A stretch of DNA of 64,000 nt from Coleofasciculus sp. FACHB-1120 (lineage in GTDB: Bacteria; Cyanobacteriota; Cyanobacteriia; Cyanobacteriales; FACHB-T130): NCBI RefSeq assembly GCF_014698845.1, contig NZ_JACJTV010000005.1, forward strand, positions 1-64,000. The letters run 5' to 3'. The stretch's first letter is position 1, and each line of letters opens with the position of its first letter. The position numbers and the translations under genes were made by a program. The notes beneath the pieces are model-generated. The model was not told where the DNA came from, did no database searches, and worked only from the letters and a program-made list of their open reading frames with translations. Positions 1-2,010 of this stretch are shown here, one piece after another.

Positions 1-1
1 A

Positions 2-100
2 AAACAACGAAATCTAGATTCTCGAAAAATTGATTGGCAATTTACTACCGCTGATGCTCGCATTAAGCTCAAGCGTCTTTACCCATCAATTCAAGCTTGA
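2..100 (+). CDS. IS630-family transposase, C-terminal end only (partial at window edge)
   Basis: Reading from base 2, an open frame of 32 codons ends at TGA 98-100. Its peptide includes WQFTTADARIKLKRLYPSI, the typical C-terminal tail of cyanobacterial IS630/Tc1-type transposases (recalled, not searched). The rest of the gene lies upstream of the window. IS630 elements end very close to the transposase stop and duplicate a TA target. Within a few bases of this stop the sequence becomes cas12k in another frame, with a TA at 106-107, so the insertion-sequence end is probably there. The element therefore appears to have landed inside cas12k. The short length is the main uncertainty. Confidence 0.7.
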   Translation, partial: KQRNLDSRKIDWQFTTADARIKLKRLYPSIQA

Positions 101-104
101 CAAG

Positions 105-395
105 GTACTACCTGACTTGAGAAATATCCGGGAAGCGGCTGAGAGTGAAGTGAAAGCCAGAGCCGAACAAAGATTTCCCGGCTATCAAGAGCTTCAAGAT
201 TGCTATGCCAAGGATTATCGAGCCAGCATTCACCGTTGGAGTTATAACAGGTTAGCCCAGTGTATTCAGGTTAAAGCCCAAAGAGCTGGGATTGCCACAG
301 AAAAAGCACAGCAACCGCATGGGGACACTCCTCAAGAGAAAGCCAGGAATTTAGTCCTAGCTGCTTATGAAAATCGTAAAGTATCAGCTAGCTAG
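105..395 (+). pseudogene. cas12k: cas12k, C-terminal fragment cut off by an IS630 insertion
   Basis: Cas12k is the RNA-guided, cleavage-deficient effector of type V-K CRISPR-associated transposons; it binds target DNA and recruits TniQ/TnsC/TnsB. About 96 codons are present. They align by eye with the last ~97 residues of Scytonema hofmanni Cas12k as I recall it: VLPDLRNIRE against VLPKLGDMRE, AEQRFPGY against AEQKFPGY, and SIHRWSYNRL against NVHRWSYGRL. Upstream of codon 105 the similarity stops and the frame runs antisense to nothing recognisable, while the IS630 transposase tail is read in another frame. The nominal TTG (30) and ATG (54) starts are therefore chance codons inside the insertion sequence. 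tracrRNA and the CRISPR array follow in the normal V-K order. Whether the 5' part survives beyond the IS cannot be seen. Confidence 0.88.
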
Positions 396-988: not shown

Positions 989-1310
989 GTTTCATCAACC
1001 CTCCCGCCTTGGGGTGGGTTGAAAGCCTCAGTGGAGCTTTGGATCTGACCTCGCAACGCTTGTTTCATCAACCCTCCCGCCTTGGGGTGGGTTGAAAGAC
1101 AATAGCTAACAAAGCCAAAGCTAATCTGTTTGTGTTTCATCAACCCTCCCGCCTTGGGGTGGGTTGAAAGTCGTCCCATTCGGTTTCTGGAATATTCCGG
1201 CTGGTTTCATCAACCCTCCCGCCTTGGGGTGGGTTGAAAGCTGCCGCATCACTCACCCGGTCAAAGTGGCCTCCGTTTCATCAACCCTCCCGCCTTGGGG
1301 TGGGTTGAAA
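989..1310 (+). CRISPR. Type V-K CRISPR array, five repeats and four spacers
   Basis: The repeat is 37 nt, starts GTTTCATCAACCCTCCCGCC and ends GGGGTGGGTTGAAAG, very like the repeat of S. hofmanni CAST. Copies lie at 989-1025, 1062-1098, 1134-1170, 1204-1240 and 1275-1310. The first four are identical and the fifth has T instead of the final G. Spacers are 36, 35, 33 and 34 nt (1026-1061, 1099-1133, 1171-1203, 1241-1274). The array reads in the same direction as cas12k and the tracrRNA. The targets of the four spacers cannot be determined from this window. Confidence 0.97.
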
Positions 1311-1356
1311 TGTGATGGAGCTGCGCCAGCACTTGGAATAATAATAGTTGTAGATA

Positions 1357-1400
1357 GTGTCACCAACTTAGGGGGGTTGAAAGGAGCGCTGCGATCACAC
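1357..1400 (+). CRISPR. Shortened repeat plus 17-nt homing spacer matching tRNA-Ala
   Basis: A 27-nt degenerate repeat (1357-1383; GTGTCACCAACTTAGGG then GGGTTGAAAG) keeps the 3' half of the array repeat but lacks its 5' part. It is followed by GAGCGCTGCGATCACAC (1384-1400). The tRNA-Ala gene at 1770-1842 contains GAGCGCTGCGATCGCAC on its sense strand (1821 down to 1805), which is 16 of 17 identical; the mismatch is at base 14. The three bases 5' of that protospacer are GTA, fitting the GTN PAM of V-K systems. V-K transposons are known to use such atypical, delocalised short guides to home to tRNA genes. Confidence 0.85.
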
Positions 1401-1424
1401 AAACCGACTGTTCACAATCAACAA

Positions 1425-1546
1425 CGACAATAATTTGCGAACAGATGCTCAAGGGGGGAAAGCGACATCAAACTGCCAATAACGACATGATTGTGCGAAA
1501 AACGACATTAATCTGCAAATCGCGACATTTAATTTGCGAACGTACA
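1425..1546 (+). mobile_element. CAST transposon end 1 (TnsB-type site ladder)
   Basis: Five related sites start at 1425, 1463, 1483, 1503 and 1523. The pattern is CGACA, three bases, then AATTTGC or a variant followed by GAA or CAA. The last four are spaced exactly 20 bp apart. The ladder ends CGTACA at 1541-1546; the terminal ACA fits the TGT...ACA ends of Tn7-like elements. TnsB, the DDE transposase of these elements, binds such repeats at both ends. The end lies next to the CRISPR array, the usual position of the right end, but the homing guide within it resembles what I recall of the ShCAST left end. Confidence 0.75.
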
Positions 1547-1762
1547 GTTATACAGCTGCGCCAGTAATTTGAATAATAATAGTTGTAGATAGTGTGGCAA
1601 ATTTAAGCGAGATTGAAAGGTTCGCCTACTTTGTAATTAAATTCGCTCGACGACATTAATTTGTTAACGGTTGTCGGCACTAATTTAAGGACACGAATTT
1701 GTTAAAAACGACGTTAAGCGACATTAATCTGTTAATGACGACAAATAATGTGTTAATCGACA
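1547..1762 (+). mobile_element. CAST transposon end 2, a tandem remnant of a second element
   Basis: Bases 1556-1595 match 1321-1360 at 37 of 40 positions. They are followed by another degenerate repeat (1592-1619, ending ATTGAAAG) and a different spacer-like 17-mer, GTTCGCCTACTTTGTAA (1620-1636). A second ladder follows, with CGACATTAATTTGTTAA at 1651, degenerate sites near 1673, 1692 and 1709, and sites at 1719 and 1739. It ends TCGACA at 1757-1762. The ladder motif ends in TGTTAA here rather than the TGCGAA of end 1, so the two ends come from diverged elements. ACA at 1760-1762 lies about 60 bp from the GTA PAM in the tRNA gene, where a V-K insertion would fall. Confidence 0.72.
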
Positions 1763-1769
1763 TTTCTAA

Positions 1770-1842
1770 TGGAGAATAGGGAACTCGAATCCCTGACCTC
1801 TGCGGTGCGATCGCAGCGCTCTACCAACTGAGCTAATTCCCC
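1770..1842 (-). tRNA. tRNA-Ala (anticodon CGC)
   Basis: The reverse strand folds as a full cloverleaf. The acceptor arm is GGGGAAT/ATTCTCC with a G-U pair, the D arm GCTC/GAGC, the anticodon arm CTGCG-ATCGCAC-CGCAG, and the T arm AGGGA-TTCGAGT-TCCCT, with discriminator A. The anticodon at positions 34-36 is CGC, reading GCG (Ala). CCA is not encoded. The anticodon arm contains a HIP1 octamer and is the apparent protospacer of the CAST guide at 1384-1400. Confidence 0.97.
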
Positions 1843-2010
1843 AAGCTGCGAGCTAATAGCCATAAGCTATGAGCTGTTTAACTTCAATATTCTAGCATCC
1901 AGTCAGAAACAACTAACTAACGTGAGTTCGGGTTAAGCCACCGACAATTTCTCGCTTCTGAACATCAATGGCTAACCAAACCCACTGCTTGTTTTCTTGA
2001 TTGTCCCTTG

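Follow-up and report, generated by a model that had tools for sequence, protein, structure and literature searches.

The first 1,843 nt of the window, a 64,000-nt stretch at the start of a 298-kb contig (C5) in the 6.2-Mb, 79-contig genome of Coleofasciculus sp. FACHB-1120 (G000), carry the left part of a type V-K CAST in which two left ends are stacked. We regard it as probable that this is a hybrid left end, in which the guide and Cas12k of one CAST lineage (A) led the ends and transposase of another (B) to tRNA-Ala(CGC). This interpretation draws on what is legible in the DNA: the match and spacing of spacer, PAM and target, the mosaic ancestry of the element, the stacked left ends, a near-perfect putative target-site duplication, and an apparently reciprocal hybrid in another genome (G219). 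The homing spacer is a real feature of a known kind; new is that it forms the inner half of a left end that is both stacked and hybrid. The main relatives compared were the sister species G001, which holds two CASTs (element A and CAST2), and the same-family Trichocoleus sp. FACHB-40 (G005), which holds a lineage B element.

1..104, plus strand: end of a multi-copy IS that splits cas12k and breaks the assembly; six further identical copies
105..395, plus strand: 3' part of cas12k, profile positions 542-629 (NF038191); 94.8% amino acid identity to G001 element A over 96 residues
G000:C7:198807-200450: cas12k positions 1-545 (NF038191)
989..1311, plus strand: CRISPR array of five 37-nt repeats, lineage A (five matches to Rfam CRISPR-DR15)
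1312..1370, plus strand: leader-like stretch, copy 1, resembling lineage B (83% to 1547-1605; 81% to the G005 B leader)
1371..1383, plus strand: truncated repeat (R*) of homing unit 1, from the sequence, with R* anatomy as in the available text of PMC9938897
1384..1400, plus strand: homing spacer of unit 1, target tRNA-Ala(CGC), 16/17, from tRNA and genome matching
1401..1546, plus strand: vestigial lineage A left end, tip CGTACA; 146/146 identical to the left end of G001 element A
1547..1606, plus strand: leader-like stretch, copy 2, lineage B (85% to G005)
1607..1619, plus strand: truncated repeat (R*) of homing unit 2, from the sequence, with the spacer register of other homing units
1620..1636, plus strand: decayed homing spacer of unit 2; 13/17 to tRNA-Ala(TGC), next 12/17; position homologous to the G005 homing spacer
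1637..1762, plus strand: lineage B left end, the outer mobile end, tip ATCGACA; 89.6% to the G005 left end over 125 positions
1763..1766, plus strand: right copy of the putative target-site duplication, TTTC; the left copy, CTTTC, lies before G000:C7:166629, so the pair is one base short
1769..1843, minus strand: tRNA-Ala(CGC), intact, the attachment site (ARAGORN, Rfam)
1805..1821, minus strand: anchor protospacer in tRNA-Ala(CGC), 16/17 to the spacer of unit 1
1822..1824, minus strand: PAM GTA, directly 5' of the protospacer

The homing spacer and its tRNA target

A sequence-only reading of this stretch had proposed that a 17-nt homing spacer behind a shortened repeat targets the neighbouring tRNA gene, and the core of this proposal was borne out. 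The spacer, GAGCGCTGCGATCACAC, lies at 1384-1400, is preceded by a short repeat, and matches tRNA-Ala(CGC) on the minus strand at 16 of 17 positions with GTA directly 5' of the protospacer; the sole mismatch is at position 14. The tRNA gene was called intact by both ARAGORN and Rfam (64.6 bits).

Genome-wide, the spacer occurred at 17 places with up to three mismatches: the spacer itself, tRNA-Ala(CGC) with one mismatch, none with two and 15 with three. The proposed uniqueness of the target thus held, no other place having fewer than three mismatches. GCGATCGC was present in nine of the 15 three-mismatch places, and the spacer pattern run backwards as a control gave eight places at the same threshold. 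Among the genome's tRNAs (a panel of 80 distinct ARAGORN sequences, with 51 loci covering the 73 Rfam tRNA places), the expected best match was also found: the next best after tRNA-Ala(CGC) scored 12/17, as did the best non-target behind a GTN PAM, tRNA-Val(CAC). Shuffled spacers scored above 13 against the tRNAs in none of 500 trials, and a clean rerun gave 14 once in 500. Within the 64-kb window, two places had up to three mismatches, one being the spacer itself; shuffles averaged 0.13 places, and two of 100 gave at least two. As a separate observation, 30 of the 73 Rfam tRNA matches, many of them low scoring, fall in one cluster of about 5.6 kb (G000:C10:126000-131800), which may be a cryptic tRNA array like that of Anabaena.

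Between the PAM and the outer end at 1762 there are 59 bp, in agreement with the 60 bp or so given by the sequence-only reading. Published V-K PAM-to-left-end distances are 46-82 nt with one exception of 147 (available text of PMC9938897), and nine of nine other measured elements with a B-like left end had a PAM-to-tip distance of 57-61 bp. The observed 59 bp agrees with what is expected for a B-like left end, and the lineage A tip at 1546, the spacer's own left end, falls outside at 275 bp. With a truncated repeat, a 17-nt spacer and a GTN-PAM protospacer outside the left end (GTA, 16/17), the layout of spacer, PAM, target and outer end corresponds to the homing anatomy already known for type V-K CASTs. 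The target had been called unusual, which it is not: homing spacers to tRNA-Ala(CGC) were also found in L131, L149, L189 and L222 and in both G001 CASTs, and CAST end scars adjoin this tRNA in G002 (by eye), G004 and G005.

Two stacked left ends of mixed ancestry

Between the CRISPR array and the outer end, 1312-1762 consists of two successive units of leader, R*, spacer and left end. The left-end tip at 1546 and the second repeat-spacer unit at 1607-1636 had gone unnoticed in the sequence-only reading, and its picture of one spacer serving one end was not supported. The native left end of spacer 1384-1400 is the one that ends at 1546; the outer end, at 1762, comes from a different CAST lineage, whose own homing unit here has decayed. 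For this reason, we infer rather than observe that spacer 1384-1400 drove the insertion. In G001, element A has tips TGTACGTTCGC at both ends with TCAAT on both sides, and the G005 B element has B-type tips with TAAGG on both sides. A single homing unit and a single left end are usual in V-K elements, though this is not a strict definition; here there are two of each.

Could this be just one ordinary V-K CAST whose left end is long and repetitive, the tip at 1546 and the second unit being degenerate TnsB-site repeats? V-K left ends do consist of repeats, and the spacer-to-tRNA distance exceeded 350 bp in four of 43 survey loci. Yet 1401-1546 is identical at all 146 positions to a complete G001 left end bordered by a target duplication, leader, R* and spacer each occur twice, and TnsB and Cas12k differ in their closest relatives, so we consider this explanation highly improbable.

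The spacer of unit 2, GTTCGCCTACTTTGTAA, is in register behind its R*, and its best tRNA match is tRNA-Ala(TGC) at 13/17. Shuffled versions reached at least 13 in three of 500 trials (rerun 0/500; wider panel 3/300), and 13/17 matches besides the homing unit occurred in five of the 43 survey loci. As this score is weak, the identity of unit 2 as a homing spacer rests on its position and its homology with the G005 unit, not on the score. B left-end scars beside tRNA-Ala(TGC) in G000 (C72) and G001 (C46) fit an earlier B attachment site at that tRNA; the spacer also resembles one to tRNA-Val(TAC), at which the homologous spacer of G005 is aimed. A decayed spacer to tRNA-Ala(CGC) was rejected, the best match being tRNA-Ala(TGC).

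On C72 (L007, 2772-2985), the B left-end scar lies 59 bp from the PAM of tRNA-Ala(TGC) and is followed by a 34-bp remnant with both A-type tips and AATG on both sides. Beside tRNA-Val(TAC) on G000:C16 (L009, 2484-2531) we found by eye a left-end scar, which we take to be like the ShCAST end. A second homing unit in G005 was considered and rejected by eye: an IS inside the truncated repeat of its homing unit (G005:C75, L082, 10071-11547), with the 9-bp duplication GGTTGAAAG, imitates one. The homing spacer behind this IS is doubled as a 22-bp tandem.

The remainder of the element was traced through cas12k, which is in two pieces covering NF038191 positions 1-545 (691 bits) and 542-629 (119 bits). 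The stretch 105-395 encodes just the last 88 profile positions, and genome-wide just one other piece was found, where contig C7 ends. Both pieces abut the end of one IS, an end present in seven identical copies including this one; copies with determinable placement sit at the start or end of a contig (C66, C63, C7), and the other IS end closes C7 and lies at one extremity of six further contigs. Most likely, C7 and C5 flank one collapsed IS inside cas12k, and the C7-C5 join crosses this unassembled IS. Since cas12k is now split, this copy of the element is probably immobile.

The C7 part begins at 166629 with TGTCGATTAACACATTATTTGTCG, a tip identical to that at 1762, followed inward by V-K tnsB, tnsC and tniQ and about 28 kb of cargo. 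PADLOC assigned the three transposition genes to type V-K (TnsB_0_V-K 2.8e-219, TnsC_0_V-K 2.9e-63, TniQ_0_V-K 1.4e-82), and the Cas12k effector of a type V-K CAST is present, in the gene split by the IS. The right end on C7 is of B type and pairs with the left end at 1762; no A-type right-end tip was found on the C7 part of the element. The cargo at C7:170323-187866 (L040 4324 to L041 2866) includes a BREX-like set of BrxA, BrxB (a weak call, E 5e-5), BrxC/PglY, PglX, PglZ and BrxL, and Fic, GmrSD-type and HEPN proteins are also encoded in the cargo; beyond these on C7 come another GmrSD-type protein and a WD40/NTPase pair.

An element split over two contigs at a multi-copy IS, in an assembly of 79 contigs, could reflect a chimera in which C5 or C7 wrongly joins pieces of two CASTs. 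We judge this very unlikely, since both left ends and the tRNA lie within one 298-kb contig, just two cas12k pieces were found and these are complementary, and B ends at both extremities together with same-family synteny fit one element.

TnsB shared 94.7% amino acid identity with G005, 59.9% with G001 CAST2 and 40.5% with G001 element A. The N part of Cas12k was 94.7% identical to G001 element A, 46.4% to the G005 B element and 41.3% to CAST2, and the C part was 94.8% identical to G001 element A. TnsC and TniQ were about 94% identical to G005, and the first 3.6 kb of the element on C7 were 94% G005-like. In the window, 105-1313 was 89.7% identical to G001 element A, from whose leader copy 1 (1312-1370) differs. 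By these identities the element is a hybrid of B ends and transposase with A effector and guide. Most of the C7 cargo had no match in the three relatives compared; further along C7, about 4 kb at 80% and then 4.3 kb at 96% were A-like, and about 1 kb of G005-like cargo (93.5%) lies before and overlaps the 96% stretch. G005 also contains an A-type cas12k relic and array within its B element, so the A/B fusion may predate G000 or have occurred twice.

A hybrid tniQ with an internal breakpoint was considered and rejected, as the part that could be matched, 165 of 172 residues, was G005-like (94% amino acid identity). It is the tniQ of G001 element A (G001:C50), not that of G000, whose 3' part looks exchanged: its last 224 bp are 92% identical to G000 tniQ and the rest 53-69%, marking a possible recombination spot.

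Insertion site, possible origins of the hybrid and an apparently reciprocal element

The flank of the right end and that of the tRNA lie on one contig in the same orientation 1.47 kb apart in G002 and G005 and 2.4 kb apart in G004. In the sister species G001 they are 55.6 kb apart with CASTs between, and in G003 they are on different contigs. We take the flank left of C7:166629 to be a ribD-like gene and its neighbours. This synteny and the matching tips place the end of the mobile unit at 1762, where the sequence-only reading had put it. The exact empty site that it had asked for in close genomes did not turn up among four same-family genomes (G002-G005): the flanks come within 1.5-2.4 kb of each other in G002, G004 and G005, but a scar tip sits at the site, and none of the four held a pristine one.

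The putative target duplication of the window element reads CTTTC at its left copy and TTTC at its right copy, one base short. G001 CAST2, the older CAST at the same tRNA, has CTTGC on both sides followed by TAATG, as in G000; this suggests that the two elements share an insertion point and that one base was lost in G000. Duplications of 5 bp in relatives (TAAGG, ACAAC, TCAAT, CTTGC, AATGT), with pairs in G005, G320, G001 and G219, led us to reject a 4-bp duplication as the rule; in G153 and G329 none was found between the tips tried.

Under the hybrid interpretation, lineage B would have given both outer ends, TnsB, TnsC and TniQ, and lineage A would have given Cas12k, the CRISPR array, the homing spacer at 1384-1400 and the A left end, now an internal relic. 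Unit 1 would be transcribed, and the 17-nt A crRNA with Cas12k would bind the anticodon arm of tRNA-Ala(CGC) behind the GTA PAM. If this hybrid machinery worked, the B transposase would have joined the B left end 59 bp away at 1762, just past the tRNA gene, after which B's old homing unit (1607-1636), left without a job, would decay. The order of events may have run through (i) array-array recombination setting the A effector before the B leader, the last array repeat ending in GAAAT in both G000 and G005, (ii) insertion of an A element at the leader, and (iii) a crossover at R* deleting the body of the A element. Because the leader before unit 1 is B-like, a simple nested insertion with one deletion would not suffice, and step (ii), at 275 bp from the PAM, is left unexplained by homing to tRNA-Ala(CGC). 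The short duplication, the unassembled IS at the C7-C5 join and the weak 13/17 match of unit 2 also count against the hybrid interpretation.

Alternatively, the hybrid formed in place: a B element already at tRNA-Ala(CGC) through another guide would have been invaded in its left end by an A CAST, and deletions would have fused the two, so that spacer 1384-1400 would have arrived together with A without being the cause of the insertion at 1762. Such an invasion is seen in G001, where element A (TCAAT) sits 10 bp inside the tip of the CAST2 left end (CTTGC) at the same tRNA. The spacers of A and CAST2 match tRNA-Ala(CGC) at 17/17 and 16/17, with distances of 76 and 66 bp from the PAM; a CAST was thus inserted at homing distance into a site held by a CAST of another lineage, and target immunity evidently did not protect it. 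A-type tips remain as scars at tRNA-Ala(CGC) in G002 and G005, and L189, with a B-like left end, reaches this tRNA with its own guide. Against formation in place, B's homing unit here resembles one to tRNA-Ala(TGC) or tRNA-Val(TAC), not CGC, an A element homing there is expected 46-82 bp from the PAM (76 bp in G001) and not at 275 bp, and G219 has the same architecture with a matching duplication for its outer ends. We therefore think formation in place unlikely, though it deserves to be taken seriously, and favour delivery of the B ends by the A guide.

The G219 element, on a 6.8-Mb contig, has A-type outer tips at both ends, a TnsB with 73% identity to A and 42% to B, and AATGT on both sides; its outer left tip lies 63 bp from the PAM of the inner guide. 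Its interior holds a non-A Cas12k (59% to the G005 B element, 46% to A), a tRNA-Lys guide and a decayed B-like left end. It is apparently the reciprocal hybrid of the window element, and it is the best evidence here that the guide of one lineage can lead the ends of another. With A-type outer ends, matching 5-bp duplications and a 63-bp distance from the PAM, such hybrids probably move. Read together, its outer flanks form a short A-type tip scar (L221, L223; G219:C3, beside tRNA-Lys), and the insertion seems to have occurred 3 bp into the tip of an earlier A-type end. This fits the nesting in G001, but it makes the AATGT pair less independent than one in virgin DNA, as two pieces of A-type tip could agree in sequence without any duplication having taken place.

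Across 388 genomes of the order, the B left end had matches in 50 and unit 1 with the A left end in 29; both left-end types within 1 kb were found, besides the window, in G219 only (lists compared by eye). In a survey of 73 V-K loci, spanning at most 10 kb each side of cas12k and mostly not reaching the right end, 43 had a spacer to the adjacent tRNA with a GTN PAM and at most two mismatches (one of them, L120, lacking a clear R*); among the remaining 30 are truncated contigs, loci with no nearby tRNA and loci with a non-matching neighbour tRNA. No credible second homing unit was found in the 43 by a scan, which more decayed units would escape, for a TTGAAAG-like repeat followed by a match of at least 13/17 to a panel of 717 GTN protospacers. 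In L097, tip-like sequences stand at both 54 and 179 bp from the PAM. The long spacer-to-tRNA distance of L127 was rejected as a case of stacked ends, since by eye array repeats lie between R* and the left end. This position of the CRISPR repeats in L127, and their position behind the homing unit in L136 (by eye), are unlike the usual order. In L116, L136 and L143, a second CAST follows cas12k of the first in the same orientation, with its TnsB at 1.3-3.8 kb and its TnsB and TnsC together at 1.3-6 kb behind that gene.

Stacking and known V-K CASTs

More generally, we tentatively propose, as an idea with somewhat less than even prospects, that V-K CASTs switch attachment sites by left-end stacking and that the window records a switch of this kind in which the old guide can still be read. 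A CAST would acquire another CAST's effector, array, homing guide and left end while keeping its own outer ends and transposase; the new guide would then lead it to the other element's tRNA, and the captured left end and its own old guide would remain as relics. V-K CASTs are described as using their attachment sites more dynamically than I-F3, 'for unknown reasons' (available text of the 2024 review PMC11406308), and stacked left ends, if true, would give a readable mechanism for this dynamics. The window would preserve both guides and both ends, old and new, in some 450 bp, and it also suggests that Cas12k-guide and TnsB-end modules from lineages just 40-50% alike can be combined naturally, which bears on CAST engineering. 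Among the matches listed in literature searches (titles and abstract openings, for example the best 12 of 166), none concerned hybrid or stacked V-K CASTs.

The element shares with V-K homing, as given in the available text of PMC9938897, the Cas12k effector, TnsB-TnsC-TniQ near the right end, an array facing the left end, an R* of about 12 nt, a 17-nt spacer, a GTN PAM, a tRNA target and a left end at 46-82 nt. It differs in having two R*-spacer units and two left ends, and in a transposase and effector from different lineages. Gene order and left-end logic are also like those of ShCAST and AnCAST (Scytonema hofmannii, Anabaena 7120), for which one left end and one homing unit, and no hybrid origin, are described in the text available. 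Tandem V-K CASTs (G001; L116, L136, L143) likewise consist of two CASTs that follow each other in the same orientation. The G001 pair, beside tRNA-Ala(CGC), is nested, one CAST lying within the other's left end, and each keeps its own TnsB and ends, whereas in the window the two are fused into one mobile unit. The G219 element beside tRNA-Lys likewise combines stacked left ends, a foreign effector and guide inside, and a matching 5-bp pair outside, but in reverse: the A lineage is outside, the B-like left end is inside, and there is one homing unit.
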